A stretch of 64,000 nucleotides of DNA, from positions 26,726,719 through 26,790,718 of the forward strand of contig NC_054882.1 in NCBI RefSeq assembly GCF_018320785.1, given 5' to 3'. This DNA comes from Cheilinus undulatus (Eukaryota; Chordata; Actinopteri; Labriformes; Labridae). Numbering within the stretch: position 1 is the first letter of the stretch; each line of letters begins with the position of its first letter. Under the pieces are notes generated by a model. The model searched no databases and was not told the origin of the DNA. It saw nothing but the letters and a program-made list of their open reading frames with translations. This document shows, piece by piece, positions 17,607-54,500 of the stretch. Both the position numbers and the translations under genes were made by a program.

Positions 17607-20600
17607 TCAGAGCATGCCGAAGCCTTCACTGCCCTCACTGATGGCCAGCTTCAGCATCTTGTGAAGCTCCTCGTAGGAGTCGTAGGTAGGGAGGCACAGC
17701 TGGTTAAAACTGGACAGAAAAGAGGAGATTTAGAGCCAAAGCTTAACTTTTATTACACAATATTACATTACAACAACTATGTCACACAATATGTGATCAA
17801 GACATTCAAGTTGAGTTTTTAAATGTTTCTCAATGTGTATTCAAGATGACAACATAGACACTAAAATGTTTTGTGCTTTAGGGTGGTTTCACATTAGGGA
17901 TCCCACGCTGATGCTATCAGCATGCTAAAATTTTCTAAAAGCACTGAAAGCAGAGCAAAGATAAAGAAAGAAAATCTACCAAACATTGATTAAAGGGGTT
18001 TTTTGTTGTTGGTTTAGGGGACTTTAATGTTTCCAGAGAGCCATACTTTAAAGATCACAGGATTCCAAGGAGTGAAATACAGATGAAAGAACCCCATAAC
18101 TGATATAAAACATGATAAGTATGAGATGAAAAGACAATGGAGGTCAAAATTATAAGAAAGTGAGTCATTATGATGACAAAATTATTAGCCATTTTATGAA
18201 AATTTTATTTTTTTTGATTATTTCCCAAGTGCTGTTCAAAAGAGCAAGGAATGTGTAACAGCATTTCCAAACATCTTGGTTTTATTCTGGATGCTTACAT
18301 TATTTTACTTTGCACACAGAAACAACATCATTTCACAAAAACTATTAGGATCAAAATTATCAGTCCTCTTTAGAACTGACCTTTTTACTGAGCCATAAAA
18401 CAAACCACTGTTGTGCAATGATTTACTTTAACTTTGTAATGTTTGCAAAGGCTGTATTAAAAAATCCTTGCTCAACACTTTATAAAAAATGATTTTTTAC
18501 AAAGGGGGGCTAAAAATTTTGTCCTCATCTGTGAATCAAAATTCTAAATTTGTATCTCATTATTTTATCTGTCTCAAAATTATCATTTCGACTTAAGTTT
18601 TTATTGATTTATTTTCAACAATTACCTAACGTTCATATTTGCTTGTTTTTTTTCTAAGTGGCACAAATGGGCTTCCACAGATTTGAATGAATCATGTCTC
18701 GTCTATTAAACGGGACTGCATATGTTTTCTTACTCACCACGTGTGTGCGGTGGGAAGGGTGCTGTGTGTGGGGGCAGCGATGATCTGGAATGAGGGGCAT
18801 AAAGTGTTGAATCCCCCAGGAGGAAGCTGAGAGGAGCCGGTGGTAAACTGCAGCAGTCGAGCTAACTCCTCCTGGGTGAAGCTGGACACTACAGCCCAGA
18901 ACCACTTCATCACCTGCAGCAATGGAAAGTAAACTCAGATGTTTGCACTGCTGTCCTAAAGAGTTTAATGAGTTTATGTGACCTACTTTCTCTCTGAAGT
19001 GCCAGGACCCTCCAACAATCACAGCATGGGCTTTAAAGTCTTGCACGTTTATATCACCAGTGCCACACATCAACAGCTGAAGATATTAGACAGGAAAGAA
19101 AAACTATTACCCGGTGTTCTTGTTTGGATCAACAAGATTTTATTATAAACATCACACGTACCTCTAGCTCATTCTCATCAAATATGGCCAGCAGGTTTTC
19201 TGGAACGAGCTCGTTCAAACCTGCAATTGATCAGGAAATTACACTAATTACATGCATATTACCGAAGATCTCAAATGAGAGGGAACTGGCAAGAAAAACA
19301 GAGGATTAGACTGCAGCTGTGGAGGTTTTCTCACCTTTCAGGAAGTGTTCCACCTCATCCCTCACCTGGCTGGCCAGCCTATACTGCGCCAGCAGGTTGA
19401 GATAATGCATCTTGTTTTCATTGGTAACAGCGATCTGAGCCCCCCCTGATATCAGCTCCACCACCTGCAGGAGAACATGTGGGCAGGATATAAATGTCAC
19501 ACAAATTACATAAAACAATCAACAACACAGGACATGAAAGTGTTTAGAAACAAAGGGAAGATTAAGTGGCAGGATAAGAGCCCGGAAACTTTCCTGACCT
19601 ATGAAATATATTTATAAAGACTTAACACGTGTTTGGCCATCATGCACTCGTAAGCATTAACATGGATGCTTCAGCTATTAATCTTAAAGTGGAAAAAAAA
19701 ATCTGTTTAGAGAAAAGCATGCGTATCTAATTAAAAGGAGGTAGCCTTGACTCGGTTTCAACACAAGGAGTTAAGCATGTTGTTGTGTGGTATTTAATAA
19801 ATGAGCAACAATGTTATAAAAGCACATCAGATGCCAAACTTAATTCATCCAGCATCATGTAAATACACTACTCCCACATCTTTAAGTCAATGACTACCTG
19901 CCAAACAAGCAATATGGTTTCTTTTGTTTGGATTATTGCTGCTATCTGCCCTGAAATGAAATCAGGGGATAAAAGGGGGACGTTCCCCTTCCAAGAGCGT
20001 TGCCTCACCTTCTCCAGCTGTCCTGACTTGCTGTACTTCTCCTCAGCGAACACCAGGTCCATTTCACTCACGTCATTGTTTAGGATGAAACACACTTTAG
20101 TTTTGTAGAACTCCTGGTCATCCGTCTCAAAGTACTGTGTGTGGAAAGTTAAAGGAAAACACAGGAAAAATGACGTTTCTTAAATAAACACAGCACTTCA
20201 TCTTCTCAGCGGAGGATAGAAAGATGACTCGGTCATAGCTTTGAAATCCAAGGAAGTTGGATGAACGGCAAAACATGCTGGCTAGGCCTGCATGACCAAA
20301 ATAACGCCAAGAAGCGATTCAGTTTTCCTGGCTGTATGGGGAATGTTAAGAGTGATGAGCGGCACTGGCTGACAGCAGAAGGTAAACAATGAAAACATGA
20401 CCTAACACCTTCTGAACAAAACATATTTTCAGTGGGAGTGTGCTGTGTTCCATACCTTGTAGTTCATCCTGAGGCCAATGATCTGGGCCAAGAAGGAACG
20501 TGTAAAGCGAGCTCGGACCAGCTGTTTGTAGGCCCCACCCAGAGCAGACTCATACAGGCACTTCCCTACGATACGACCTGCAAACTCATACATCTTTAGA

Positions 20601-23600
20601 CGCAGGTGGGCTGGCCGCTCAGGGTTTGGATGCACCTGAATAAAAAGAAAAGGGCATTTAAAGGACACTAAAACCATGGACACCAGGACAGCACATATAA
20701 CAAATGCTCCATCAAAGGATCACATGGTTGTTTTCAGGGATGTCATGTGCTACGTTCAGTAAAAGCAGAGTGTAACATTTGTATTGAACTATCAAAGCTT
20801 ACTAAGCAGCTAAATGCTCCACAGTACAAGGGAAGTGATAACTTTTTGTTTACCTTATCAGATCTCACTTTCTTGCTTTGTATAACAGCCTCATTCTCCT
20901 CTAGGGCCAAAAGAAACCAAAGATACACAGACACACACACTAAAGCATTGCTTAACTTTGCTCTTAGTGTTATAGTTTTTAAAGTACTTTTTGTTTAGAG
21001 TTGTACTTTCTCTACAACTTGCATTTTCTCCCCGTATCGTTTTTTTTGTTGTCATGTTGAGTTTCCTTTTTGCCGTTGGTCCTTGTTGTCACCACTATCA
21101 CTGGTTCACATGATTCTTAATTGATGGGATCATTGTAATGGATACTGGGAGAGTGGGAGGTCCTCCAAGGTGGCCCAAGACTAGAGTGTACACTCTGCCA
21201 AACAAATATGGACTAGCATGTCTAAGACCAGCTCATAATGTGACTTGATTGATCAGATCTCACTGGGCCTCAATGCATTTTGGGTATGTTTATCCATGGT
21301 GGAAGGTTCTCCCCACATGAAAATGGGGTTTATTCAGGAGTAAATTATTTACCATGTCTGAAAAAGATACTTACCAGGCCTTGGTTGTTGTCACTGAAGC
21401 GGGTGAAGAGCTGGTTGGAGGTGTCAAAGAGGGTCTTACAAATCAGCTCAAACCACTCCCGGCGAGGTCCTCCCCAGTCCAAAGCTGCAGATCAAGTTGA
21501 AAGTTTAATTAGGAGAAAGATATAACGTGTTGACAAATTTCATTGGGGTTTTATTTTAAAATGGAAAAATGGCCTTGAGCAAAAGTTTTACCCTCTTCGT
21601 CCAGAAACACAACCTCAAAGTTCTTGCTCCAGTCTGACACTGAGAAGTTCCTTGTGGCCTTCAGAGACTTATCAGCAGTAAAAGGGAGAGTCTAATTAAA
21701 ACTGAAGCACATGACTGACTAATGATTACATGCCTGTTGTCATAATAAGCATCTTATCTAACAGTAATCAATAGGAGAAGCAGCACTCACTGAGTCAAGA
21801 ATGGAGTGTCGGGTTATTTTTAGGCAGGTCTTGGTGCGAGGTCTCTTGGAGTGGATGTGCCTGAGTTCACGTTGAAAGAAGTTCACCTTGTCTTGGAACG
21901 TTTCAGAGCCACCTGAGGACAAGATCGTTAAATTACTTCCACAGTCTTAATAGAAGACATTATTCAATAAGTGCCGCTTGAGGATACAGCAATAAAATTA
22001 GATGAAAACAGACCAATGTTCTTGTGAAGAAAGCGAATGAAGGTGGCAGCCATGATGTTTCTGTCTTTACAGCTGAGCTCCACTGGAGGCTGTATCCCAT
22101 CATCCACCACCAGAGTTAGATACTTGTGTACTGGGTCAGGACCATAGTAGGTAAACTGAGAAGAAACAGATCAAAATAACAATTACCAGGACTTTTTTAA
22201 CTTAATAAAGCTGCATTTTTTTCAGGGTTATATAAGAATTTGGCTTACCTTTGTTCCTGGACATACTCGAAAGGTGAAAAGGCGCCATGGAATAATTTTC
22301 AGGTAGAACTCCTTCACGGATAATTGCTGTTTGACATAAAAGTCTGAGTCAACACTGTTAAATAACTCCAATACAGAAGATCATTTCACTTAGAATGGAG
22401 TTAAAACTACACTGTGGGAACTCAAAAAGTTTGTAAGATTATCAGCACTCCAGTTTTTGCCGTGTACAGCAGGTGTCTTAGAATGTGATGTGGAATCATT
22501 CTCTAACTATGTGCGACTGTGTAGTCAACAGAGGTGGAAAAAGTACAAGAGTACTGTACTCAAGTTTTGGTTGAAATATACTTAAGTAAAAGTAAGAGTA
22601 CTCATTTACATTATTATCCTCTGCCTTTTTACTTACCTTTGGCGATATGTAACAGTAGACCTTTTTTGGTTTCTTGACCTTCTCGGGTTGTCCCTCCACA
22701 GGAGAATCATGCTCATCCTCCTCCTCTCCCATGGACGGCCTCCTCTGAGGTGCCAGCAGAGAGGAGGCTGGTAACTGCCACGAGGAAGTGCTGTAGTTTC
22801 CACTGCTGTAAAGGTATGCCTCAAAGTAGATACTTATGCCTGGAGTGGACACATTCTTCTCCACGCAGGCTTTCTCATTCTCTGCAATTTACAACAGGAG
22901 TATTAATATTATCTATCAAAAGTGTAGCTGGCATTTCTGGGGATGATGCCTACTATAGTAGAGTAAGTTGCTAACCACTGAGAACAATAATGTCAAATTC
23001 CCCATTGCTGAGCGGCTGATCCTTGTAGGAGATGCGGGCCCTGAAACATCCCGTCTTCCTCAGGGTCAGTCTCAGCAGAACCTGGCACTGCTGCTTGTTG
23101 AGTGTGACTGATTTGCTGTAGTATTCCTCCATACTGTCATCATCCACTGTGCCCAGCTGGAAGAGGATGAAACTAAACATGACTCACAGCCCAGGATTTT
23201 GGAAATTACTCATCCGCTAAACTGTAAAGCTTGACTGTGGAATTAGAAACACAAGGATATAAAATACACTGGCTTTGTTCTAATCCAATCTCAGATCCCA
23301 TCAGCAATAATCATCCATCATGACGACAATATAGGTCCCTGGGAACATAAGCCAACTTCTTAGTAATTCCAGTGGAGCCAGAGCCTGGCGTTAAACATAA
23401 TTCAGCTAAAACTTATTTTTCTGTGTTCTGCGTTGTTTACAGTCTAACTTAAGCATGTGCTAACATCAAATGTGAAGCAAAATTTACCCCACCATTGATG
23501 TCTGACACACTCCCCTCTAAAAGTATGGGAACTGTGAGGCCGATTCCTTTATTTCTACTACAGACTGTAAACATTTGGGTTTAAAACAAAAAAATGAATA

Positions 23601-26600
23601 TGAGATCAACATTTTAGCTTTTTATTTCCAGGTATTTACATCTGGATCTGATACGCAACTTAGGAGATAGCTTATATGTAACGGAACACCAAATTTTTAG
23701 GTGAGCAAAAGTATTGGAACAGAAAGACTTAAAACAGATTAAAGTGAATAGACTTAATGTCTGATTGCAAATCCTTTGCTTGCACTAACTGCATCGAGCC
23801 TGTGATCCACTGACATCACTAAACTTTTGCATTCCTCTTTAAGTGATGCTTTTCCAGGCTTTCACCGCAGCCTCTTTCAGTTTTTTGTTTTGGGGGGTTA
23901 CCCCCTTCAGTCTCCTCTTTAGCAGCTAAAATGCTCCATAGGGTTTAAGTCTAGAGATTGACTTGGCCAGTCTAAAACCTTCCACTTCTTGCCCCTGATG
24001 AACTCCTTTGTTGTTTTGTCAGTGTGTTTTGGGTCACTGTCTTGCTGCATGATGAAGGATCTCCCATTCAGTTTGGTTGCATATCCCTTGAAATTGGCAG
24101 ACAAAATGTTTCTGTAGACTCCTGAGTTTATTTTGCTGTTGCTATCATGTGTTACATCATCAATGAAGAAGCCCATATAAGCCCAAGCCATGACATTACC
24201 TCCAATGTGTTTCACAGATAAGCTTGTATGTTTGGGATCATGACCAAATCCTTTCTTTTTCCAAACTTTAGTCTTTCCATCACTTTGGTTAATGTTCATC
24301 TTTGTCTTGTTAGCCAATAAAACTTTGTCCCAGAATTTTTGAGGCTCGTCTCTGTACTTTTTGGCAAATTCTAGCCTTCCCATACTTCCTCCAAATGAGT
24401 GGTATGGAGTGGCATCTGCTGGTGTAGCCTCTGTTCTTTTGTTCATGAAGTCTTCTGTGAACAGTAGATGGTGATACCTTCACTCTTACCCTCTGGAGGT
24501 TGTTGCTTATGTCACTAACAGTTGTTTTAGGGCCTTTCTTTACAGCTCTCACAATGTTTCTGTTGTCAACTGATGCTGTTTCCCTTGGTCTACCCATTTG
24601 ATGTCTATTACTGAGTACACTGAGTGTAGCTGGGTTCCTGCTTTGCCTGGGTTCCTATCATTTTATGGTACTGATGTCTGTGTCTTGCCTGCATCCTGAT
24701 GTTCATGATGTCTTAGCTGTGCAGTTCATGTCTGCACTCTGATTGACGTCTGTGATGTCTTAGTTTGCATGGCATCACAGGTCATCTAGGTTTGGTTCTA
24801 TATTGTTGCTCTTTATCGATGTAGATGAATTATTATCTGTCTACATGTCACGTTCTGTTTCTTGTCTTTTGTCTGGGTTGTTGCTTTGTTTTTGTACTTG
24901 CTTCTGCACTTGTCAAAGCACTTTGTAAACCCATGTTTTTAAAAGTGCTATACAAATAAAGTTATTATTATTATTATTATTACACCAGTGGTTTCTTTCT
25001 TCTTCACAGTTGCTTGTTTTTCACTTTGAAGATTTGAAAATCATCAGTGTGTAGCCAGCCTAATGCAGGAAAAAAAGGTTTGTTCCTTACTGAATGCACA
25101 TGGACGCTGTAGTTGGTTTCATCTGTGAGAGAGGTTGAGTTACTGGTGGGGTTTCCATATTCGTCCCTGGGCTCAATCTGCAGAGTGTGCTGCTGGCAGT
25201 TTGTTAACACCAGCGTGGAGAAATGGTAGGCTATTTTGGTTTTAGATGGAACAACTGTACCTGAAGTTGACAATAGAAAACAGAAAATCAGTAATGCAAA
25301 CTTTTACAAATCACATTACAGAATGGACAGAAGACAGAAAGTAGTAATACCTGGCTGAAATATCTTATAATACGGGCTGTAGGCCACATTGAGGCCGCCT
25401 AACTTGACAGCGACCTCATAGCGCCCAGCCTTGCGCACTGTGAAGGCCACTTTGACAACATTGGACTCTGGTTCTTGCAAGACCTCCTGTGTAACAGGTA
25501 TGTCCAGAGCCAGTTCAATGTGGGTGATGTTGACCCGCAGTCCTACGGGCCGATGGGCGGGGAAAGGCTGACCATTCTTGTAGAACAGCTGAAAATACAA
25601 TTAAAAAAGCTTTTAATTCAATCTACAAAAAAAATAAATATAACATAGTTGTGCTCAGGCCTTGACACTATTTTTTGGCTAACTAGCCAGAATTAAGTTT
25701 ATATTATTGAGATTGGCTGCAGCATGCCAAAATTTACTCAATTTACAGTCTTTTGAAGTGTAAATGAACACTGTGCTTCTAAATTTAAAGCACTGTCCCT
25801 TGTCCAACCTTGAAAAACACAATTGACTATCAAATATGGGATGTTTTTTTGGGGGGAAATTTTTCCTTTTTATGTGCAGATAAACAGATAATTCACAAAC
25901 ACTGGTGCACACAGCTAAACACAGCTAAACACAGTTATAACAAAGCATATTCTAACAGTGGTTCATTTCTCAAAGTGGCTGGTGGGAGTAAGTGCGGTAC
26001 CCGCCACAGCTGAAATCCACCTGCATTTGGTGGGTGCATGTTAATGTCAAGCCCTGGTTGTGCTAACAAAACACGTCTATAAAAATGAATTCGACTAGAA
26101 GAAAGAAGTATTGTAACATCGTCATTTTCAAACAAACCAGGACTGAAACATCACCTGAACTCTGAAGCTCATAGTCTGCCCCACTTCCTGCGGCTCCTTC
26201 CAATCCCAGGACACCTTGCAGGAGCGTGGGTCCAGGTAGTTTCCCCGGACATAGTCGTAGATGCTGCGGTCACCGCGTCGCCCTGGATCCTCATTTTGCA
26301 GGAAGCTGACAACTCTCGCTGCGAGCTCACAGAGGAACTTGATGGTAAAGACAAACGCTATGATGGAAACAGTAATTCCACCTGCAAAAGAAAAAAAGGG
26401 GGCACAGGAGAAAAGCTGTTCAAATGCACACAGTGTGTTTATTTGCTTTTAAAATGAGCTGATAGACAATGGAGTAAAGATTTAAGTTTGATAGTCTAAC
26501 AAAACAAACAAAAATTTTGGGACAACAAAGACACTATAATGCAGTTTGTATAATCTATAGTACTGCAACATGGATGAAAGGTGATGCTTACATATACAAT

Positions 26601-29600
26601 GAAATGGGTCAGTCAGTTGCAAATCCGTCAGTTAACTCACCAATAACGTAAAACATGAGGTCCCTTATCAAGAAGCACAGTGCCACAGTACAGCCAAATA
26701 CAAGAGCTCCAGCTAAAAAGACAAAGAAACAATGACCATTTAAAATAAAAGACAATACACACTGCCTTCTCTAAAACTACTGGATGATTTTTCAGGTATA
26801 AAGCAAATCTTTATTTAATTTGTAACATCAGGCTGGACATAAGCATGACTACACTGCACTTCATGTGATGTTCTTTGAAATTAATGGCAAGTTCCCAGAT
26901 CTGAAAAGCACACACTGGGAAGAATGCCAGTGTATTAAGAGTCCACTTTGTGCAACTAATGGTTAAACTCAACAACATTTTATACTAATCTACATTTATC
27001 CTTAATGGAAGTGACTGCAGCATTTTATGAGCAAGAAAAGGATATAAAAAAAAAAAAAAAAAAAAAAGCACATGTTGATCTGGAAATAAAGATGAAGCAA
27101 CACTGAGCTCCTCCATGACAACACTGTGAGCCTTGTAGTAACAAAATTTTGAAAACACTTCAGAACACTTAGCAACAGAGCACCTCAGTACATGTTTACA
27201 TTTCATATCTTGGTGACCAGAAGTCTTTTGATACTCAGTGGTCGTGGGAACACAGACGCAAAAAATTTTCAAAATCTCACCAAGTGACCACTTCTCATTC
27301 AGACGTCTCTCAGCAAGACTGTGCACCAGCCGGATCTCGTAGTCCTGGTCCCGACTCCCTCTGGACGCTTGCAGGATCTTGATGCCTGTGGACAACTTGA
27401 TGTAGTCTTCGTAGTAGTAGCCCCAGGCAGCTAGAGACAGCTGCAGCTGACTGTCAAACCGAGACAAGTCATCCAGATTCAAACAACCCAACGTCTTCAG
27501 CCTGCAGGAGAAACAAGAGTCAAAATAAACAAAAAAAGATTATTGATGGAAACAAAATCAATTACTTTTTTTAACATGACTCTGTCATGACTCTTTTCTG
27601 TTACTCCTCAACTATGAGGAAGACTGCTGACTTATCTGTGAACAACTGGTTTAACAAACAAAAGTTGTTCTGAACCTCTGAACAAGAGTAGCGTCAGTCT
27701 TATCAGCTCAATTCTACAAGCATGTCAACAGGGTGTGGTGAGAAGGTGCGGCATGTTGTATCTGGGTGACAAGACAAATTCAAGTTGGGGTAATAAAGTA
27801 TATTTCATGATATTTCAAGAAAGAGAGAGCAAAGCAGAGGAAAATGGTTGTCAGGTAAATAGTTACAGCCATAAAACCGAAGCAAGTCTTTGTATAATGA
27901 GCTAATAGCTTAGTAAGGATTCTACATTAAAACTTGGAATCTGTAGGCTGAGGTCAAGATTTTTGTACGATGGACTCTAACATCACTTGGTAGCACATTT
28001 GGAGTCTGTGTAATGCTGACTGATCACATACTGTGTATGCAGGCTTTGATGTACGCATTAAAAACTGCCTATACAGACAGCAACAACAAGCAGCACACCA
28101 TCTGTGCCAATGACATCCCAGCTTTTATCAAACCGATCCAACTATTTTCTGTCTATAAGCAGATATCTGCTTACAAGTAGAGCAAACAATCTGTTGTGTA
28201 ACACATTTTTACCTTGAGTTACATATCTACCTGACTGTGCCACAAACCCTAATCAGCATTAGAGTTTACCCCCTTCCTAGAATTCACCAGAGGATAAATT
28301 TATCCTTTATTAAATGAACAAGAACTTTAAACCCTGTTTTCTTATTCTACTCCTTTTAAAGATGAACCAACAGAGCTTATGTTTTTACTTTTTAAAATCA
28401 GCATCATGAGCTTGTACATTTGAAACGATTCAAATGCATTTATTGTCAGTAAATCACAAGAAAATTGGCTTCTTTTTCAGGCTCATACTCCTGAACGGAG
28501 CCTTAATGAAGCCTTGCTTTTTCCAGTAAACTGAGCCTCACCAAAAACAGATGACCAGGCGTACCTGTGTGGAAGGTACTGAGCCAAAAAAACATAGCAC
28601 TTTGCTTTGTTTTACCTTATTTTTACTGGATTATGTGTTACAAATTGGCATGTACTAGAGTGAGTTTTAAAAAGCACACTGAGATCATTATTTCTATATC
28701 CTATGAAATAAAAAAATTGATTAAATACTTGTGACTTTTTACACAGAAAAATAAACATGTGACTTAGTCCAAGCAGACCATTTTCTCAAGGAATTGTGCG
28801 TTTTTCAACAAAGCTACCTAACATGGCTTACTTTATTTTAAAGGGGCATGAAAATTGAAAATTTATGAGCATTCTTTTACTGCACTGATTTAACAGTGTG
28901 TGCTAATGTAGTTAGCCATCTTGTATTTGGGATCAGTTAAAAAACTTTATTCTCCAATAAATTTGCTGTCATTTGAAATTCTTGTTTTTTTTTAAATTCT
29001 CAAATCTAATTTTATCTTTTTACCCATTTAAGCCATGTGCATCAACTACACAATGCATCACGGACTTTAATCTATAACTTTTTATTGATTAAGGTTTAAA
29101 GTCATTCACACAGCAATAAAGGCAGAGATGGTGTGACATCCATGACCTTCAAATTGTGGCACAGACTCACATAAGAGGTGCCACTTTTTCTCCAAATCCT
29201 GATGTCCACAATGTGATTAAATGTGAGATAAAGATAACTGACCTTTGGAAGCATTACAACTGACCTTCTTTAAACTGAAGCAAGGCAAACAGCCAACATT
29301 AGTTAAAGCAACAATTTTATCATACAAGCAGTCTGATTACATCAGCATATAGCTGGAGAAACATGCAAACATCTGCATTGCTGCAGGGTCTCCCATGAAC
29401 AATCTCTAACGAGTACTTTTACTGCAGTGACCCTGTGAAACACTGCAGCTTCCACAGTGTCAGCAAACTCAGCTAGCCATGAAAGAAGAGGCTGCCCTCA
29501 AGTGGACAGAAACCAACATAGCTGGGATTACAGCAGCATGTAACACTACCATAACCACATAATCAATTATAAAACACACAATTCTACCTGGAAAAATCAA

Positions 29601-30493
29601 CATTTACAACATAAGTAATTGTCCCCTTGAGGGGGAAGCTGCTCATGGTTGTTTTCCAACATTGAGATAAATGTTGAGGTTTAGAGGTTTTATTACTTAC
29701 GTTTGGTAATAGTGCTCCAGGTTCTGGGAACAGAGCCACTCCTGGAAGGCAAAGTCTCGGAGCAGCTGGATGTGGGCCTCTGCAATCTCCCTCCAGCGCT
29801 GCTGTTCCTTTACCACCTCTTCCAGACGACTTAGTACACTCAGGCTCAGCTCCTCCAGTGTCTGTACATCTGGGAGACACATGAACAACCCATAAATACA
29901 CCCCATCACTCACCAGCCAACAAATCAGCATCAGTAATGCCCTGGAACAGCCTTAAATACCCATTAAACTCAATTATAATAACTATCTAAGCCTGTGCTG
30001 ATTGTCACTGCATGCCACATGCATCTCATAATGCTAGATATTCAGCATTCAAACCCTTAAAATTACCGTGGTCAAAACTACAAGAAACAAGCTTTCTTTG
30101 CATTAAACAAAGTTCATCTACAGCTGAACATTACACTTTTCCTTGGTATTTCTGCAAAACCTCTCAGCGATGTTGGAAAAACAACCCTTACTGGAAAGTT
30201 TTATGTTATAATGGCCCGTTGTGATTAGTTGCCTATGTTCAGGTCATTGTATTTACACTCTTTTTTTGACCCTGAATGACCTAATTAACAAACACTGTCA
30301 GCTGTAACACTGTTGTTAATCTTAAAAGCACTGCAACCCACTAACCTTCAAATAAATGCCTGTACTGAGAGAGGCTATGTCCTTGGAGCCATTCCTCAAT
30401 TTGACTTTCTTTCCCTTTCTTCCAGCGCACTTCCCAGAAGAAGATCCACGACACTGAGCAAAAGAGGAAGGTCAGGAAGAAGCGGCGGTCCAT
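17607..30493 (-). CDS. AREL1: Apoptosis-resistant E3 ubiquitin ligase 1 (HECT), N-terminally extended, 21 coding exons
   Basis: Coding exons (minus order): 30346-30493, 29701-29869, 27281-27501, 26641-26712, 26155-26381, 25351-25588, 25091-25260, 22976-23156, 22637-22881, 22249-22326, 22014-22155, 21791-21912, 21592-21667, 21375-21484, 20456-20635, 20009-20134, 19335-19464, 19162-19220, 18987-19076, 18738-18913, 17607-17709. They total 3063 nt, 1020 residues. From residue 199 (MFYVIGGITV) onward the protein follows human AREL1 (823 aa). Order: signal-anchor-like helix about 5-20, two SAM-like helical repeats about 30-150, two membrane helices about 180-226, filamin-type Ig region, then HECT with catalytic Cys987 (HTCFNQL). 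AREL1 ubiquitinates IAP antagonists such as SMAC. An in-frame TGA 7 codons upstream supports the start. The largest intron, 27502-29700, shows nothing recognisable. Confidence 0.93.
18133..18540. mobile_element. Probable MITE with Tc1-like ends in AREL1 last intron
   Basis: Left end ATGACAAAATTATTAGCC (18172 onward) and right end, read in reverse complement, AGGACAAAATTTTTAGCC are an imperfect inverted pair. A further copy of the GAGGTCAAAATTAT motif lies just left of it. No protein frame is seen between. Ends of this type occur in one fish Tc1 lineage. Confidence 0.45.
23500..24597 (-). mobile_element. Tc1-like transposon with frameshifted transposase
   Basis: Minus-strand transposase in two overlapping frames. 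24310-24597 gives the N-terminal helix-turn-helix part ([29 protein letters not shown]). 23919-24446 gives the DDE part ([45 protein letters not shown]). A frameshift near 24.43 kb separates them and the normal DE(S/T) of the first block is LANKT, so it is dead. The outer terminal repeat near 23.51 kb reads CTCCCCTCTAAAAGTA. It lies in the AREL1 intron between the exons at 25091 and 23156. Confidence 0.8.
24610..24982 (+). mobile_element. Retroposon (SINE/LINE 3' tail) ending in (TTA)n
   Basis: The 3' end AAAAGTGCTATACAAATAAA followed by (TTA/ATT)n is the typical tail of fish non-LTR retroposons, and the AAGTGCTATACAAA block recurs in the SINE at 51.2 kb. The body shows no frame. It sits directly against the 5' end of the Tc1 copy, possibly cutting it. 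Confidence 0.5.
27042..27067. repeat. Poly(A) tract in AREL1 intron
   Basis: A run of more than 20 A residues in the intron between the exons at 27281 and 26712. It may mark the tail of a degraded retroposon. Confidence 0.7.
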
Positions 30494-30501
30494 CAGACCA
30501 T
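30493..30501 (-). promoter_or_regulatory. Two-codon uORF overlapping the AREL1 start
   Basis: On the minus strand the leader reads AAAGATGGTCTGATGG: a uORF ATG-GTC-TGA whose stop shares its final A with the AREL1 start codon. The uORF start has A at -3 and G at +4, while the main start has C at -3. That arrangement would favour termination-reinitiation. Confidence 0.55.
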
Positions 30502-31423
30502 CTTTCAGCCTTCACTGAGACCTCTTTCGTGCTCAAAGGAAAAACTCAGCCTCTTGCCAGGGGGCTAATGGAGTCTCCTAAAACTGCAAAACAGAGAAAT
30601 GTATTGGCACAAACAGGGTGGACAAAATATGAAATTAATATAACAACAATTGAGCTGCTGTGTGGGCCACCAAACAGTAAAATTAAAGCTAAAACAAACT
30701 GTTCTTTCAAGAATTAAAAGATCACGAATATTCAAGTGTCACCTTGGAGGAAAGTTAGCTGATGGGAGAATAACATGACATGCAATCCACAAACACTAAA
30801 TTATGCATGAAGAGCTTGGCAAGAGAGTGGTCATAAAACTCTCATAAGCCTGTGTTAACCAGGACAGACTGCGAAAGACAAAGAATTCAAGTACATTAAT
30901 AGCAAAATAACACTCTCAATCCCACCCAAGAAAGGCTCAAATGATATATTTACTAATAATAATGAGTACAGAAATGCAGATGATAAATGGTTCAAAAGCT
31001 ACTCCTCTTATAAACTACACTCTGACTAGCGTACTTTCGATTTCAAAAGCTAAACTTGCATTTAACCGACTGAAGAACACAAAGAGATCGGTGCACAGAC
31101 GGACTAACAACTGCAGTATCATCAATTCTCACTGGTCTACTGACACCGGGAGCGCAACGTAAAGCTGGAGGCTAGTGTTAACAATTGTTAGCATCGTACC
31201 GACAAACTGCTACTGTTCTCCAACGGCAACATAATGCTAACAGCTAGCGAAGTTAGCCAACAATGTCAGCGTAAATTTAGAAAGCTCGTCGCCGAGCCGT
31301 GTCGGTTGTCAAGATGCACCTCACAGCACGTTCCCGAAACATCGTACGCTACTGCACAGCTACACGAAACGAAAATGCACAGGCAATGATATCCTCCCCT
31401 AATACTATTAAACACTGCATCTA

Positions 31424-31470: not shown

Positions 31471-31575
31471 AACGTGTCGATTGTTGATTACGTCACTGGC
31501 AGAGGCATCGACACACGAGGGGAAGGGGACCCAGCTACACACAGCCAAGAAGAGATCTGTTTTCGCGTTTAAAAC
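31440..31575. promoter_or_regulatory. Shared head-to-head AREL1/FCF1 promoter
   Basis: Only about 150 bp separates the AREL1 first-exon donor from the FCF1 ATG. The interval has an ETS-like ACCGGAA at 31452-31458, a TGCGCA NRF1-like half site just after it, and an ATF/CRE-like TTACGTCA at 31488-31495. There is no TATA box. This is the usual makeup of housekeeping bidirectional promoters; transcription starts were not determined. Confidence 0.6.
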
Positions 31576-33923: not shown

Positions 33924-36900
33924 CATTGGTAGCTGCGCACCTTGGTTGCGGCTACGTCATGTGTTTTGTTGCTCTGATTGGCCCTTAAAGATGTGACAGA
34001 CAGAACGTTCATCCAATCACACTCAGAGTTTTTTTCAAATCCTCTGCCCCTTCCCAAACGCTTAGTATTGAAGGTTTTCTAGATGGATGTGTAAAAAAAT
34101 CTCTCTGGCATGTCAGGTTAGCTTACAACTAATAAAAACCCCAAATCCAGTTCCTTATGAAAGTTGAATTTTGTAAAAGGTTTAATATTATAATGTAATT
34201 GTGTCGCACTCTAATCAGCCAATTAACTCAACACCTGCAAAAGCTGATCACCGCCATGCCACACTGCTTTGATGTTGTAATTCATGCAAAAGGAGCTCCA
34301 ACCAAGTATTGAGCGCATATGAGAAAACAACTCAGAAGGCCAGCATGTCTGTATAAAAAAAAGTTTTGGTGTTATGTAATGTTCTGTTTTTTAGATACTG
34401 AATTTTGGGTTTCATGAGCTGTGAGCCATAATCATCAAAATGAAAAGAAATAAAAAACTTAAAAATGTTTTCTTTGTGTTTAATGACTTCAAATGAGTTT
34501 TACTTTTTGAATTAAACTTCTGAAATAAATTAACTTTTCAAAGATATTCTAGTTAATTTAGATGCAGCTGCATACCAAATGTTGTTATATTGTGGTTATA
34601 ACTTTTTTTGTGTGTGTTGTATCTTGTTTATTGCAGGGGAAGGCCAAAACAAAGAAGTTTGCTGCAATGAAGCGAATGATTAACCTAAAAGATAACAGAA
34701 TGTGAGTATTAATGTCTTCTTATTATTTTATAACCAAGAGCAAGACAGTTTTTAACATGAAAATTCTGAATTTAACATTTCCATTCATTTAACCAATCAT
34801 ATGTTCACATACAATTTGACAACAATGCTTTAATTTTTGTGGGATGTTTTCATGCAGAAAGGAGAAGGACCGTGCAAAAGCAAAAGAGAAAAAGAAGAAA
34901 GATCCATCTGCGCTTAAGGAAAGAGAAGTGTAAGTTGGCCTCACATACCCTTAACTTAAGGGAAAACTTCTGGTGAAGGGATCTTTAACCTGATTTCTTC
35001 AAACTTCTCTGCAGGCTAAAGCACCCTTCATGCCTGTTCTTCCAGTACAATACGCAGCTTGGTCCACCATACCACATTCTAGTCGACACCAACTTTATCA
35101 ACTTCTCCATCAAGGCCAAACTGGATATTGTTCAGTCTATGATGGATTGTCTGTATGCAAAATGTAAGTACTACAACTAAATTACAAATCTTAGTTAAAA
35201 TAGTTCACTGTAACTGGCACTGACAGGGGCTCTAGTTGTTATTATTAATAAAAGTGCTATTTTTATGTAATTAATCCACTCCAGGTATACCCTACATCAC
35301 GGACTGTGTCATGGCTGAGATCGAAAAGCTTGGAATGAAGTACAGAGTTGCACTCAGGTACAATATAGAATGACACTTGCCACTTGGTGCATTAACAATT
35401 TCTGCCCATTTCAATTTTTTAAGGAGTTCACTTTTTCTTGCCTTTGCAGGATAGCCAAGGATCCAAGGTTTGAGCGTCTGCCGTGCACACACAAGGGAAC
35501 GTATGCTGATGACTGTTTAGTGCAGAGAGTAACAGAGGTAATATGCTTTCATACTTCATTAACCCCTTTGTTACATGCAGTGCCTTTCCAGACATAGTTA
35601 AGTGTCAGGTGCATGTTCAGTAAAATCTATTCATTCAGTACACTGAAAATGGACATCTTCCTGCAAGCCCCCTGGTAAAGAAAGTCTGTGTTTTTCTAAA
35701 TGAGCTGATCTGTGATGACAGGATGTAATATGACCATTTACCACAAGAACGCTTAGAGGAAACTTTAGCTGTTGTGTACTCTTTGCCTGATCACCTCAGT
35801 TGTCAGCAGTGTTTTTTACTATAGCATTTGTATTGCAAACTAAAGCAGAAACATTCACCATGATGGAATAACCACCCTCCTCTTGCATGTTTTACCCAGC
35901 TGCACCCAAACCAGGAGTTTAAGTGATGATAGCAGGTCAGATATACTCTAACTCCCATTGTAATAAAAAGGCAAGTCTATAAAAGTTCAGAACCAGAATA
36001 TCTCAAATTGACCTCGTTATGAACAATAAAGCATTTTCAGTAAGAGACCTTTACACAGCCGACAAAGTCTTTGATGTGATTAAGTATTTTTTTTTTTATA
36101 AGTTCATTTCAGGCTGCTGGCCCATTCTGTTTAACTAAGCCATCTTTATAAGTTGCTGTTTTGCTTGTTATTTCTTAAGTGAAAATATTACTATTCTTGT
36201 GAGATTAGTTTTTACTATGTGGGCATAGAAACAGAAGAAAAGCACCCTGATGAAAAATTATTATTGATTTACTCAAGTGGACAGTATCAGAATTCAAAAT
36301 GATGGACAGAACTAATCATTGGGGTACCTTCACAGACAATAACCTAGTGATGGAGAGGATTACCTACGGATTGAAAATGAAGGATTAACTTGCAAAAGAC
36401 TGGGCAAATTGTATAACAATAATACAAAAACAGACAACAAACAGTAACAGATGTCACAAAGAATAATGAAATTCTCATCTATTCAGGCGTGTGATATTTG
36501 TGACATATTTTGTTTGCTTTTATGTTTATTTTCATCATACCTATTAATAAAATGTTTTGATATTCATCATAGTGTTATGAAAAAAATCAACAATGCATAG
36601 ATACACTGCCTGGCCAAAAAAAAGTCGCCATCTGGATTTAACCAAGCAAATAGGTACGAGCCTCCTATTGGATAATTACTGCATGGGCGATTATCTTTCA
36701 GCTGGCAACTAGTTATTTAACCCTAGCTGACGCAATGAGTAACTTCTCATCTCTCAAACAACCATGTCGAAAGACACATTCTGTGGTCGTGGAAAAGACG
36801 TTAGTCTGTTTAAGAAGGGTCAAATCATTGGCATGCATCAAGCAGAGAAAACATCTAAGGAGACTGCAGAAACTACTAAAATTGGGTTAAGAACTGTCCA

Positions 36901-38882
36901 ACGCATTAATAAAAACTGGAAGGATAGTGGGGAACCATTGTCTTTCAGGAAGAAATGTGGTTGGAAAACAATCCTGAATGATCGTAATCGGCAATCAATT
37001 AAATGTTTGGCCAAATCAAATCGAACAAAAACAACAGTAGAACTCAGGGGTATGTTTAATAGTGAAAGCAAGAGCATTTCCACACGCACAATGCAAAGGG
37101 AACTCAAGGGATTGGGACTGAACAGCTATGTAGCCTTAAGAAAACCACTAATCAGTAAGGCTAACCGAAAAAAAACGGCTTCAGTTTGCTAGGGAGCATA
37201 AAGATTGGACTCTGGAGGAATGGAAGAAGGTCATGTGGTCTGATGAGTCCAGATTTACCCTGTTCCAGAGTGATGGGCGCATCAGGGGAAGAAGGATCGG
37301 CCACCACAGAGTCCAGACCTTAACCCCATTGAGAATCTTTGGGATGTACTGGAGAAGGCTTTGCGCAGTGGTCAGACTCTCCCATCATCAATACAAGATC
37401 TTGGTGAAAAATTAATGCAACACTGGATGGAAATAAATCTGGTGACATTGCAGAAGCTTATCGAAACAATGCCACAGCAAATGCATGCTGTAATCAAAGC
37501 TAAAGGCGGTCCAACAAAATATTAGAGTGTGTGACCTTTTTTTGATGGCGGCTTTTTTTTTTGGCCAGGCAGTGTATTTGAATAGAAAATAAAATATGCT
37601 CATATTGGTGTGGTCACTCGCTTTTTAATTTTTTTAAATATTTCATTATTATTATTATTATTATTATTATACATTTTTAACAGAATCAGGTGTACATCCT
37701 CATGTATCAGTAACATTGCATGAATTCATAGTTACAATTAACAGCGATACACAAAAACATTACAAACCTGGAACTACCTATTCTTCTTAGTTTCTAAACC
37801 CAAACCCTCCACTTCCCCATAGGTATTTCTCTGCAGTGTCTAATTCAAAAGAGATTTTTACAATACAGCTGCAGTACATGCTGATAGCCACAACAGCCTT
37901 TGTGTTTGGTTAATATTATGCCCAGAATCGTCATTCAAAAGCATGAATTCAGGAGAACAAGTAACTGTGACTCCAAATGGTTTAGAGAGAAGCTCAGCTA
38001 TTTTTTCCCAACATTTTCTAACTGGAGGACACTCCCACATGATAGAAATGTAGAAAGGTCCCCACTTGGTTTAAATCACACAGAGAACAATTTGGAGAAT
38101 GATCAATGCTCATTCTAAAACACCGCATTGGAGTTAAAGAAGTCTTATAGATAAAGTATAAGTTTGATAGTTTATAATTTAGATTTTTACACAAGATGTC
38201 TTTTGCCAAACTTAAACCCAGTTGATAGATGAATCAGGGCAGCCTCTGTTCCATTTTGATGTAATTGCTAAGGAAGACTGTGTTTGCTCTAAAAGTGTGC
38301 TATAAATCATAGACACGAGTCCTTTTTTAAAGTCCTGAAAGTTTCTTAAATAACACCATTAGAGGGTGCAGAACAGGTGGCCTATCAGTAGAAATGTTAG
38401 CAGCATGTATAGCTTAACGTAACTGTGAAAAGTCACAGTTACAGTCACTCGCTTTTTCAAAAAAGAAAACAGGCGTGACATGGTCAACTATACTTAATTG
38501 GAACTAGGCTGTTTGTGTTTGCTCCAAGCTAAAGAACACCCTATTCACAACAACTGATGACTGCACGAAAAGTTATATATTCTATTGAACCTGCCCATAT
38601 TTTCACAGCACAAGTGTTATATCCTGGCTACTGTGGACAGAGATCTAAAGAGAAGAGTCAGAAAGATCCCCGGGGTCCCCATCATGTACATCTCAAACCA
38701 CAGGTGACACTAAACCACATTTAGCTTTCATATCTGGCAGCTCTTTGTCTTTTTTATTTAAGCCTGTGAAATTTAATGTCTAGAGTGTTATAAAAATGAA
38801 GCTTAACAGATTTTTGTTCTTCTTTTCTTACAGGTATAATATTGAACGGATGCCTGATGACTATGGTGCTCCAAGGTTTTAA
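31576..38882 (+). CDS. FCF1: FCF1 rRNA-processing protein (PIN domain), 8 exons
   Basis: Coding exons: 31576-31578, 34637-34701, 34858-34929, 35015-35163, 35285-35357, 35450-35537, 38609-38703, 38834-38882. They total 594 nt, 197 residues (human 198). FCF1 is a nucleolar small-subunit processome component needed for early pre-18S cleavages. After a Lys-rich N terminus the PIN domain shows [10 protein letters not shown] (Asp71), [10 protein letters not shown] (Glu108), [10 protein letters not shown] (Asp141/142) and [12 protein letters not shown] (Asp160/162), so the acidic cluster is complete. The end, [15 protein letters not shown], is nearly invariant in eukaryotes. Exon 1 contributes only the ATG. 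Introns 1 and 6 are swollen by transposons. The plus-strand donors and acceptors all close the frame. Confidence 0.96.
32106..33254 (-). mobile_element. DNA transposon with inverted terminal repeats in FCF1 intron 1
   Basis: Left end GTTGGAAAGCCTGTTTATTT and right end (reverse complement) GTTGGAAAGCCTGTTTAATT, each followed by a CAAATGGTG-type block, form imperfect inverted repeats of about 45 bp. On the minus strand a degraded frame near 32.40-32.46 kb resembles a Tc1/mariner catalytic region (VWW, then [11 protein letters not shown]). The element is about 1.15 kb and non-functional. Family placement is tentative. Confidence 0.6.
33388..34572 (+). mobile_element. Tc1-like transposon, split by a later insertion, FCF1 intron 1
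   Basis: Left ACAGGTGCATCTCAGAAATT and right (reverse complement) TGCAGCTGCATCTAAATTAA ends head long inverted repeats of about 150-200 bp. Only the transposase C terminus remains (34243-34313; [20 protein letters not shown] then stop). The family is the one at 39.1-40.7 kb. A second element at 33540-34120 sits inside its left repeat. Confidence 0.75.
33540..34120 (+). mobile_element. Nested element with 8-bp target duplication
   Basis: The octamer GCTTACAA flanks the insert exactly (33532-33539 and 34121-34128) and the host Tc1 text resumes after the second copy. Its ends (TTACCCTTGC and, in reverse complement, TAACCTGACA) are weakly inverted. Inside are a run of about 30 T (near 33890-33919) and a plus-strand frame at 33680-33862 reading [13 protein letters not shown] then LKEEQRTTL, reminiscent of a helicase N-terminal helix. 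An 8-bp duplication fits hAT or P-type transposons. Confidence 0.6.
36604..37574 (+). mobile_element. Tc1-like transposon with intact ends but deleted transposase, FCF1 intron 6
   Basis: Exact CACTGCCTGGCC inverted ends flanked by TA on both sides (36602-36603, 37575-37576) define a 971-bp element. The frame 36764-37192 encodes the paired-like DNA-binding part ([27 protein letters not shown]). A frameshift at about 37.18 kb leads to [12 protein letters not shown] (first catalytic Asp), then a deletion jumps to text around [13 protein letters not shown] and KAKGGPTKY-stop at 37525. The central catalytic Asp block is absent, so it cannot act alone but its ends could be mobilised. Confidence 0.85.
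37640..38460 (-). mobile_element. L1-like LINE fragment (reverse-transcriptase 3' region)
   Basis: The minus strand contains broken frames reading [20 protein letters not shown] (38018-38209) and [20 protein letters not shown] (37858-38040). These match the C-terminal Cys/Trp-rich region after the L1/Tx1 reverse transcriptase (the C..C......H and W.CP...FW blocks). It is 5'-truncated and frameshifted. A (TTA)n tract at 37642-37670 lies at its 3' side. It is inside FCF1 intron 6. Confidence 0.65.
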
Positions 38883-43622: not shown

Positions 43623-46600
43623 ATGCTGAGGGCCACTGTGGGCTGTGTGCTGGAGAGAGATGAGGAGCAGGAGGATGAGGGTGAAGAAGAGTTGAGGGAT
43701 GGAGGGGTCCCTTTCTATGTCAACAGAGGAGGCCTACCAGTGGATGAGGAGACTTGGGAGAGGATGTGGCGTCATGTGGCTCGAACTCACCCCCATGGTG
43801 AGGCTTTGGGGAAGGATATCCGGGGTGCCACTGACCTTCCCAAGGTAAAAAGTGCATAATATGCAAAGCTGATTTTAACACTATGCATGTGAACCCAACA
43901 CATAGTTGAGAAGCAATAAACACCTATGTGTTGTGGGACATATTTACTTTGCAGCTTCCCAGGGCTGATAGAAGCAGTGCCCCTAAATTAATGAATATTT
44001 TCTTCTGCAGTCCAATGCAAGGATTCTTTTGTTTATACTGGCCTGTATTTTCAACTATTTGAATGTTACGGATGTTCAGAAGAATGACACTTTTCATTCC
44101 TCTCTTACCAGAGTAGTTCAAGAGTTACCCTTGCTATTCTTCAACAAATAAAACAACTTTTTCCAGCAGCAATGAATGCTGGGATTGTTTAATGCAGCTG
44201 TTTGAATGCTCTCTCCCACAGATTCCAATACCGAGTGTGCCTACATACCAACCTACCACCACTGTCCCACAACGCCTGGAAGCCATACAGAAATACATCA
44301 GGGAATTGCAGTATCCTTTGGTAAAGTTGGAATGACTGGTTATCACCAAAATGGATGGGGTTGTTGTTAATACAGGGATGTCATCTAGAGATAGATTTTG
44401 CACACTAATCTTATTCAAAAGGATGATATGAAAATAATAATACTTGCATCGTTGTTTTCTTAATCCGGCTGACCCACTGTTTTGACACACTTTGATAAAT
44501 ATGGGCCAAACATGAGAAAGTAGGCCACTGTCTCAATATTCTATATTAAGCTTGATTTTCAGTCAGAGCAGAAATTCATCCATAATTAACCAACAACCTA
44601 TGAATATCACAAAGCACTCTAAGTGATTGTGTCGTCTCCCCGCCTGCTTGGAGCAGAGTTTTATCTTGAAGCAGTGTCGTGTTGCTCAGTTTATGACCTT
44701 AACTGTTCCCTGCAGGTACAATCACACAGGGACGCAGTTTTTTGAAATCAAGAAGAGCCGCCCTCTAACTGCGTAAGCACATTTGTTTCTGATCACCGGT
44801 AATCGCCTCACAGGGCTTTGTGTCCCATTATGTCAGTGACTGTGTTTGTTGATTTCTTCTTGTTCAGCCTGTTCTGCTTATGCCTGGTCTGTGTGGAGCA
44901 GATGCATCTTTGGTTCAGCCTACAGGCTTATTAGAAGGAACTGCAGCAGCAGCAGGGGCCTGGGCAGTTTCCAGAGCTAGCTTTATCAGATTTAATAGCA
45001 CAATTTTTTGTGTGTTTCTTCTTTTTATAGAGGTAGCGAAGGTGTTATTCTCTTGTTCTTCTTCTGCACAGGTTGATGGATATTGCTAAAGAGATGACAC
45101 GGGAGGCTCTGCCAATCAAATGCCTGGAGGCGGTAATCCTAGGGATGTATCCTTACATTCAACATACATACATACATCATTTCATACAACAATAACAAAT
45201 TTCTTTCCTGAAAATTATTCTGATATAGAGACTTAAACATTTTAGACATTTACAGTGCCTATACAAAGTTTTCACCCCCTTGGATGTTTTACCCTTTTAT
45301 TTATTTTATAAATCAATCAATTAATTTATCTTTTTTGACAAAAACACTCTCGGGTGATACCCATTTCACTAATTGTGAAACTATTACTGGACCCTTGTTG
45401 AATTAGGTCAGTCACTTTAAAGGGGGTGAATATTTATGCAGTCACTAATTTTTACATTGCATATATGTTTTTTCACTTTGACACTTAAGAGTTTTTTGGT
45501 CAAAAAAGCCTAATTATATTATCAATGCTGACAGCCCTTGTAATATCTTAATATAGCCATTCTTCAGTGGTTGACATGTTTCAAGACAGTTGAATAACAT
45601 GACATGACAGTATCTGGTTAACTGAAGAAATTTAGTTAAATTGCAAGGGATTCAAAAAAATAACTTAAAATATTTGGCACCAGGACTATGATAATTGTGT
45701 CACACAATCTGGGACAATGAAATATCGTTGTATTGCTATTTTTTCCACCACTACTCCAAACATGAGTGCAGCATGTTAAGAGCCATGTTGGTTTCTTTGA
45801 CCCACATTCACACAGTTACCTCACCAACAACATGCCCGGAGTAGAGCGCTTCCCCCTCAGCTTTCAGTCTCACTTCTCAGGGAACCACTTCCACCACATC
45901 GTGCTGGGAGTTCACAGCGGGGGACGCTTTGGTGCGCTGGGCATCAGCCGTAGGGAGGACCTCATGTTCAAGCCCCTGGAGTTTAAGACACTCATGGACC
46001 TGGTGCAGGAGTTTGAAGGAGCCTACAGGGGCTACTGGCACACGCTAAGGAAGGTTAGGATTGGCCAGTATGTGTCCCATGACCCTCACAGCGTGGAGCA
46101 GATTGAGTGGAAACACTCCATACTCGATGTGGACAAGCTTACCAAGGAGGAGCTGCGGAAGGAGCTGGAGAGGCACACTCGAGACATGCGGCTGAAGGTA
46201 CAGCTCAGACACGTTTACTTTTTCATGTAAATTACACGCCTTATTTTATTCTTACTTTCCAGCCTCTTTTTGCATACTGACAAAGATACTGCGGGATGAA
46301 GAAAGTGCTGATAAATGTAATTTTTCTCACTTAAGCAGCCAGCCTCTTCAATGCTTATTAGGTTTCTTTGACATGCTGTCTCTTCATGCTCACTGACACC
46401 GAGTTGGCCTGCTGTCTGAGGAGCAATTCCTCTCAAACGACGCTCTCTCATCACCTCTCATGCTCTCATAATGAAGGCAGCCTTGGCGCCGAGCTCTGTG
46501 TGTAATAAAACTAATGTGATGGCTTCACTCTGCACTGCTGTGCTTCATGCATGGCCAGCTCAGTCTATCAATAGCTGATCTTATGCAGCAATGCTCTGCA

Positions 46601-51515: not shown

Positions 51516-54500
51516 TCATGCAGCATTCAGCTCCAGCTGGAATTTGGCAAGTAGACTGAGATGGTCAGAGGGGAATATGTGATTAGGAAGACCTCTCATT
51601 GACCACAAAACATCCTCTGATAGCAGAGAGAGAGATCCAATGAGCTTCAGACCCTCATTCGCATAGTCATCACCAGCTGAGGGAGGAAAAAAAGCAAATA
51701 AGTTATCTATTAAGAGCTGAAACACTGCCCTTAGTGTCTTGTCTTCGTACCTCTGTGATCAGCAGTTAGCACACGTCTCGGGGTGTAGAAGATGTAGTCA
51801 ACTGTTGCTCCTCCTTCAGAGTGCAGGGTGGTGACTTCGGGGTTGCCTGAACCAGGAAGAGAGTGCTTGTAGACAGAGTCCAGGTCTACCTGAAGACTAA
51901 TAGTGTGCCGGAAGCTGTGAGACAAAATTTGGGAAAAATAAACATTACTCAGGGATATGAATTGATATTTTATCAGATTCCATTTGGCAATAATCCTGCA
52001 GTCCAGGGGTTTCATTCATCAACAGTGCAAGTAGGATGAAGTGGACCATATCCTACTCATCAAGCAGGATGAGGTTGATCAAAAAAACCTCTCATATGGA
52101 GTGAACCAAATTAATTTATTTCTTTCACTTATTGGGGAGGATGATTTTAAATTGTAGATGTTATGTTAGGCTGGAGGGAAAACACCGTCAGCAATCTAGG
52201 AGAAAAGGTTTGATATCAAGCAAAAAGAAAGAGTAGAAAATCATAATATGTTGCACAAGCAGGAAGTACAGTCCCTGTAAAAAGGAATCTTTAGGCACCT
52301 CACAATTTGATTTGATTATGATTCACAGGGCTACGTTTCGATTCTAAATCGATTACTGATGCAGTTTGGTTCCCTTTTTATTCTTTTAATATTTCTGTTC
52401 TCACTGTGTCCAACATAATAAAAACATGACATTTGTATTTACAAAAAAATAGTGGGGATGCTAGATATTGGATTTTTGCTATTATCCAATATGCCGATAT
52501 TTACAGATTCATTTTAGCCTTTATCGATACCGGTATTTAGATATGCTTTTTGGACTAGAAATTTCAGTCCTTTTCGACACACTTAAAGATTAGAGGATGA
52601 CCACGGAAACAAACTTAGGTCTTAAAAAACACTTTAAAGAACGAGGATAAATAAAGAAAAAGACTTTAACTGACATAGGTATGTTGGTCCAGCCTAAAAC
52701 GCCACAAATTTATTAGTATATATGGACAAAATTTAGTTGATATATGCTGAAATACACAGACAAGATATTGGATGTAAACATCAGCAGAAATTATGATATC
52801 TTCCGATACTGATACCTGACTGATAATATTGTGTATTCCCAAAAAACAGATAAATTAAATGTTCACTATCCTCTAACGGGAGATGTGTGTAAACTGGAAA
52901 GTTACAATTGCATTGAACCAAAGGTAGCAGCAACCTTTTCATGTAACATATCTGAAATTACAAACATAAACAACTGGTAATCTAAACCAGTGTGCTGCGT
53001 TTCAGAGTTCCGCCTTTTCATTACTGCTATTTCACCGTATTAAATATTCGAATAATCACTAATTGGACATTTATAAATCCACAATCTAAATAACGATGCA
53101 TCGAAGAATCTATTTTTCTCCCACTTCTACTAAATACTGACTTGAAGGGGATGAATACCACACAATTTTTACTATTGGACACTGAATTTTTTAGCATATT
53201 TAGCTACACAGCTCTCTGTGTGATTAGAAATAACTATCCAAACAGTGTGGTTTACCAGTTCTTCGAATAAAACAAGCACTACTTTTCAAATGCCCATCAC
53301 AGCTGCCTTTCAATGAAGAGATCCCAGAACATAAATTAGAGTGACTAATGCATGCTTTAACACCCGTAATGCTTTTTATTTGTAGTCTCACTATTCTACC
53401 ATTGATTAATTGTGTGTAAGGATAGTCAGAACTGTCTTTAAATTTACAAATTCCTAAGTAAATGTGCATACTGATAAATACCACATTTAATGAGTGATGA
53501 ATACAACAGATATATCTGTTGTAAATATTGGCTGAAATTTTCCCATCTGCCAATACCAAAAATGAACTTTTTAAGCTAATGTCTGCCAATACTGACATCA
53601 TGCAGAGAATGTTGTACATCCTTAATGCAAAACAATTAAATGACGGCCAATAGGGCAGATATGGTATTGACTGTTATGGCTACTCCGTTTCTTGTTGCTG
53701 TGACACTAGAGCCCCATTGTCTTTAATAGTAATTTCTCTGAATCTTAAGCCAATTTGACACAAAAAGAACAGGTGCTGACCTTTTTTCAGGCAAATCTCT
53801 CACTGAAGCATCTGTATAAACAGACAGAAAACCCACTGTTAGAGACAAAGAACACTATTTAAATCAAACAGTAACTGTTTTTAGACTGTACCTGGTGTGT
53901 TGTCAGTCACACCTGGGATCAGCTCTAAGTCAACAGGACGGACGCATGCAGCTGGACAATAGCGCAGCTGCAGCAGGAAGTCATGGCTGAACTGACCTTT
54001 TCCTACACAAGATCAAAATAAAGAAGTAAGTGGAGAGAGAGAGGGACTGAAACAGAAACAACTCTGCTTAGATCAAGATATCAAAAATAACAGCAGGTAC
54101 GAAGGGTGCTATGGCTTCAAACGCTGACCTGGTTTCTGATTCTGGTCCTTAAATATCTCCTTGACAGTCGAGTACTGGCAGCTGTCTGTGATTCCTAGAC
54201 TGCTGGGCCACAGAGGAGCAAGCAGTCTGTGACAGTGGACTTTGTAAGAGAGGTCCTCCTGCCCTGAAATCTATTGGAAATGGTTGAAAATATACAGCAG
54301 CGGGGGTTAATCCTGCAAGCATTGTATCAGACAACATAAATTAAAAAAAAAAATAACTTGGGTATTTCAAACAGATAACAGAGTCAATTCTAAGAAGTTT
54401 GCTTTTGCAGGCATTGATTATAATCTTTCTGGTGTATTTTAGTCTCACCATCCATGCTGGTAAACCTTGGAAGTAGAGCTCCCCTGTGGTGATCAGCTGA

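Follow-up and report, generated by a model that had tools for sequence, protein, structure and literature searches.

AREL1 lies on the minus strand of the window analysed here, a 64,000-nucleotide (nt) stretch of Cheilinus undulatus DNA (assembly GCF_018320785.1, contig NC_054882.1, positions 26,726,719 to 26,790,718 of the forward strand); all positions given below are those of the window. The coding sequence runs from 30493 to 17607 in 21 exons (3063 nt), encodes 1020 residues and closes on a single terminal stop, with GT/AG borders at all 20 introns. An earlier interpretation of this DNA, made from the letters and their open reading frames (the sequence-only reading), had placed four in-frame exons before methionine 199 (M199), regarded as the start of the annotated human protein. 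The frame and the total length hold: the first four exons (Table 1) are in frame with the 17 downstream exons, and the 198-residue extension occupies three whole exons and most of the fourth. As that reading also stated, there is no methionine between residues 1 and 199, making M199 the second of the frame. It is very likely that this longer reading frame, and the pair of SAM-like domains within it, are real in this fish.

Among the 405 GT and 376 AG dinucleotides between 26000 and 31500, the donors of exons 1–4 rank 6, 12, 9 and 4, and exons 2–4 have acceptors ranked 28, 3 and 27. A probable leader exon lies further upstream, with a candidate donor after 31425 and a candidate acceptor at 30583. 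For exons 9, 10 and 13, all beyond the extension, the borders were placed using human AREL1 and the length of 1020 from the sequence-only reading; before these adjustments the automatic exon chain gave 1035 residues.

The extension carries codon use of the coding type. A codon score trained on the rest of the AREL1 gene gave 0.151 per codon in frame, whereas the other two frames scored −0.232 and −0.238. First-order Markov simulations scored −0.188 ± 0.064 and none of 5000 reached 0.151, with the caveat that this score counts stops as rare and so partly measures the open frame; the number of simulated exon sets that stayed open in frame was likewise 0 of 5000. Synonymous codon choice in the extension fits the gene body better than in all 2000 uniformly random-synonym versions, a control in which G+C was free to vary.

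An in-frame stop lies seven codons 5′ of M1. In a message built from these exons, M199 would be only the seventh AUG when counting starts at 30580, preceded by five out-of-frame AUGs and M1, and M1 is therefore the likelier start. The context of M199 (gacctcATGT) is weak and that of M1 (ggtctgATGG) only moderate. A two-codon upstream open reading frame (ORF) overlaps M1 and is possibly a translational control element. This overlap and the middling context of M1 would suit a scheme in which the exons form an untranslated 5′ leader whose open frame arose by chance, but we consider it highly improbable, given 198 open codons with body-like usage that no simulation reproduced and matches to domain families extending across both introns.

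SAM-like domains and membrane segments

On residues 25–155 of the extension, Pfam SAM_1 scores above its cut-off (24.3 bits, cut-off 23) and SAM_EPH below its own (22.9 bits, cut-off 27), and shuffled versions of these residues matched a SAM family in none of nine cases. In the whole-protein Pfam search SAM_1 scored 17.3 bits, and both families fell under their cut-offs. Two WL...Y segments had been singled out as SAM-like from the sequence, and each of them begins a SAM-like domain, matched by SAM_1 and SAM_EPH, respectively. In a weak model of residues 87–155, which contain the second domain (SAM2), the layout is five-helix, and comparison with PDB structures returned entries naming a SAM domain in 15 of 18 cases among the matches listed. 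A single-sequence model of residues 1–358 (pLDDT 47) was too poor for use.

Direct sequence searches returned little. Against PDB sequences, phmmer gave no match for residues 1–279 and, for SAM2, a sole match at E 1.4 that is no SAM protein. In the species' own assembly (1.17 Gb, 46 contigs), the Pfam SAM_EPH profile, in a search that misses intron-split domains, found nothing in the AREL1 gene and two matches on other contigs. A protein search of the same assembly, with the best six candidates scored, recovered three exons of AREL1 itself, along with weak matches at E 6.3 and E 9.1, and no second copy of the extension. No relatives of the extension with the start of the transmembrane (TM) region (174 residues), or of the region that follows (155 residues), were found in viral_contigs. 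A literature search joining AREL1 with ‘sterile alpha motif' gave no title about AREL1, and one joining it with alternative starts showed AREL1 in none of the 15 papers listed out of 369.

The extension begins, as had been proposed, with a hydrophobic helix, here a moderately hydrophobic stretch at residues 5–20 (a flat Hessa sum of −1.26 for the 16 residues). At its other end, the strongly hydrophobic segments 177–195 and 199–217 are only three residues apart and are divided at M199, in agreement with the proposal that the extension supplies the first half of the membrane region. Residues 1–230 contain no sequons, and the charge distribution does not decide the topology. We infer that the helix pair forms a hairpin and that the SAM pair probably shares the cytosolic face of the membrane with the HECT domain.

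Downstream of the membrane region, the HECT domain is above its Pfam cut-off and is preceded by a filamin repeat (PF00630, 42.7 bits, cut-off 26.9). Among the best 60 of 64 matches, the HECT part aligns with chain 6jx5_C over 388 residues (800 bits, E 1.8e-239), and the best family other than AREL1 is NEDD4 (223 bits); PDB entries 6JX5 and 6LOH are both the HECT part of AREL1. The Pfam listing at E ≤ 10 comprises eight families, none of them RING; HMMER's filtering removes most matches with E beyond roughly 0.1 from such a list.

Correspondence with the published protein

Published AREL1 is 823 residues long (PMC9547173), with a low-complexity region from K346, a hinge at G706TGDIS and a catalytic C790 in the human protein (PMC12864862, a 2025 paper). 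The human numbering equals the fish numbering minus 197 at all four landmarks (the K346 region, G706, C790 and the end at 823), and at this offset the fish protein has the same amino acid at 11 of 12 HECT positions specified in PMC9547173, residue 453 being I for V. Since the offset is constant, the 823-residue human protein begins within one residue of fish M199, so that the start assigned by the sequence-only reading agrees with the published one to that precision. The first letters of the human protein are, we presume, MFYVIGG. Two further records bear little on the extension: AREL1 is among the teleost markers of PMC5240625 (654 bases in 5 exons), where a figure of 0.028 is presumably the ratio of non-synonymous to synonymous substitution, and was not used as the exons are unnamed; a mussel gene model of 511 residues (PMC11353290) is too short to inform.

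The human gene was edited at ‘exon 4' (PMC12864862). The guide RNAs of that paper decode to TIYDYV and FELAAR, both in fish exon 5, and to SHVELA, in fish exon 6; we reason from the usual cut position that the two exon-5 guides account better for the T insertion and the T deletion reported there. Provided that human introns fall at the same places as fish ones, two exons would precede the start-codon exon in the human transcript (one if the exon-6 guide was meant), compared with three coding exons and a probable leader exon upstream of the M199 exon in the fish model. In mouse, loxP sites were placed in introns 3 and 8; under that exon numbering, fish exons 5–9 sum to 1061 nt, which is no multiple of three and agrees with a knockout design. 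Either exons have been lost in human or the published transcript is a shorter variant. A simple error in annotating the human start was considered and set aside, because the guides and the ‘exon 4' label in the available text imply fewer upstream exons in the published human transcript.

The low exon count inferred for human weighs in part against a human counterpart of the long form. Puncta published for the 823-residue form are attributed to its low-complexity region, from which it follows that clustering needs no SAM head. Two schemes, each compatible with a long fish protein, would accommodate a short human one. Promoter or splicing choice might yield a long tandem-SAM form and a short form starting at M199 that differ in clustering or location. 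We give this a nearly even chance: M199 sits at a boundary within the hydrophobic pair, the label and guides leave few upstream human exons, and 823 numbering is standard in the available AREL1 work (PMC12864862, PMC9547173, PMC10359330), but the weak start context of M199 counts against it. Alternatively, the long form may be confined to fish or non-mammalian lineages, mammals having lost the head or its frame. The 823 residues and single TM segment of the available human literature, together with the inferred shortage of upstream exons, fit such a loss; a missing annotation does not, however, mean a sequence missing from the genome, and we regard this scheme as possible, though rather doubtful.

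Feature coordinates and genomic neighbourhood

Table 1. Features of the AREL1 gene in the window
Feature	Position	Strand	Evidence
5′ untranslated portion of first coding exon (predicted); candidate acceptor 30583, rank 4 of 376 AG	30494..30583	−	Splice-site ranking
Two-codon upstream ORF (ATG GTC TGA), stop overlaps M1 start codon	30492..30500	−	Sequence
Coding exon 1: M1, hydrophobic helix at the N terminus, first part of SAM1	30346..30493	−	Spliced frame, upstream in-frame stop
Hydrophobic segment, residues 5–20, possible signal anchor	30434..30481	−	Hydrophobicity
SAM1, residues ~29–86 (Pfam match 29–62; outer limit estimated), across exon 1/2 intron	29760..30409	−	Pfam SAM_1
Coding exon 2: remainder of SAM1, start of SAM2	29701..29869	−	Spliced frame
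SAM2, residues ~89–152 (Pfam match 92–145), across exon 2/3 intron	27363..29753	−	Pfam SAM_EPH, model of 87–155, PDB comparison
Coding exon 3: remainder of SAM2, linker, start of second hydrophobic segment	27281..27501	−	Spliced frame
Hydrophobic segment, residues 177–195, across exon 3/4 intron	26666..27290	−	Mean Kyte-Doolittle 2.15
Coding exon 4, 72 nt, contains M199	26641..26712	−	Spliced frame
Codon of M199, apparent start of annotated 823-residue form	26654..26656	−	Met positions, landmark numbering
Hydrophobic segment, residues 199–217, across exon 4/5 intron; counterpart of single N-terminal TM of 823-residue protein	26341..26656	−	Mean Kyte-Doolittle 2.26, published TM description
Coding exons 5–21: filamin repeat and HECT domain	17607..26381	−	Spliced frame, Pfam, PDB match

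The next gene on the plus strand has an exon of FCF1 (rRNA-processing protein FCF1 homolog, E 1.1e-29) at 34989–35177. Because this gene points away from AREL1, the two may plausibly share a bidirectional promoter near 31500. Past the FCF1 exons, at 36743–37192 on the plus strand, is a Tc1-like transposase remnant (HTH_Tnp_Tc3_2, 37.6 bits, cut-off 31.5), and a Tc1/mariner-type transposase-like remnant occupies 23919–24654 on the minus strand, in the intron that separates AREL1 coding exons 7 and 8, with a DDE_3 match on 23919–24479 under the cut-off (17 bits, cut-off 28.6, E 0.0054). Further along are a vasohibin exon at 45766–46230 on the plus strand (Pfam, 196.4 bits) and, at 54341–54916 on the minus strand, an endonuclease/exonuclease/phosphatase-type exon under its cut-off (22.5 bits, cut-off 24.5), which we take to be ANGEL1-like.

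Probable organization of the long form and comparison with known systems

We consider it probable that fish AREL1 is a 1020-residue membrane protein that starts at M1 and combines a tandem-SAM head, a hairpin, a filamin repeat and a HECT domain, and that the 823-residue form is its head-less version. The interpretation offered by the sequence-only reading is partly supported, namely for a coding extension of 198 residues, the two SAM-like domains and the division of the membrane region at M199. Translation from M1 would insert the protein probably into the membrane of the endoplasmic reticulum (ER), with a short hydrophobic anchor followed by the two SAM domains, the tight helix pair (177–217), the filamin repeat and the HECT ligase. 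The SAM pair may mediate self-association or binding to a scaffold or a further SAM protein, and HECT domains would in this way be clustered at the membrane. The 823-residue form would begin inside the hairpin and could come from a shorter transcript or from incomplete annotation. Expression of the long form, its topology, and its oligomerization or partner binding are predictions of this model.

PMC12864862 reports that AREL1 tethers lysosomes to the ER and that Purkinje cells are lost in mice lacking it. If the long form is correct, the anchor would consist of a hairpin and an extra helix instead of one helix, and a true SAM pair would offer a concrete route for ligase clustering or partner finding. 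Should the head also be mammalian, published constructs lack it, and localization, clustering and substrate choice have been studied in a head-less protein; should mammals have lost it, the ligase would be organized differently in fish and mammals. Tentatively, and with more doubt than confidence, the long tandem-SAM, hairpin-anchored form could be the ancestral vertebrate AREL1, in which case published experiments were made on an 823-residue form lacking the part that organizes the enzyme. The long form may already be present in fish gene models that were built automatically.

With human and mouse AREL1 (KIAA0317), the fish protein shares the HECT match and the constant offset of 197, and it has a filamin repeat. 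Published AREL1 starts at the last hydrophobic helix of the fish protein; the available text describes one TM segment at the extreme N terminus with the remainder cytosolic, and the term ‘sam domain' has 0 occurrences in the available portion of PMC12864862.

A design reminiscent of BFAR had also been suggested. Like BFAR, a membrane RING ubiquitin ligase with a SAM domain, fish AREL1 is a probable membrane ubiquitin ligase with SAM-like domains. It differs in being a HECT ligase with two such domains and no RING family listed, and the likeness is only a loose analogy since Pfam gives HECT and filamin; a literature search joining BFAR with SAM domain, transmembrane and RING found nothing. The SAM domains of Eph receptors and tankyrase (SAM_EPH and SAM_1) resemble the AREL1 head in profile match, in best structural matches and, going by the weak SAM2 model, in five-helix layout. 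Unlike them, the AREL1 pair stands in tandem, between membrane segments, inside a HECT ligase.
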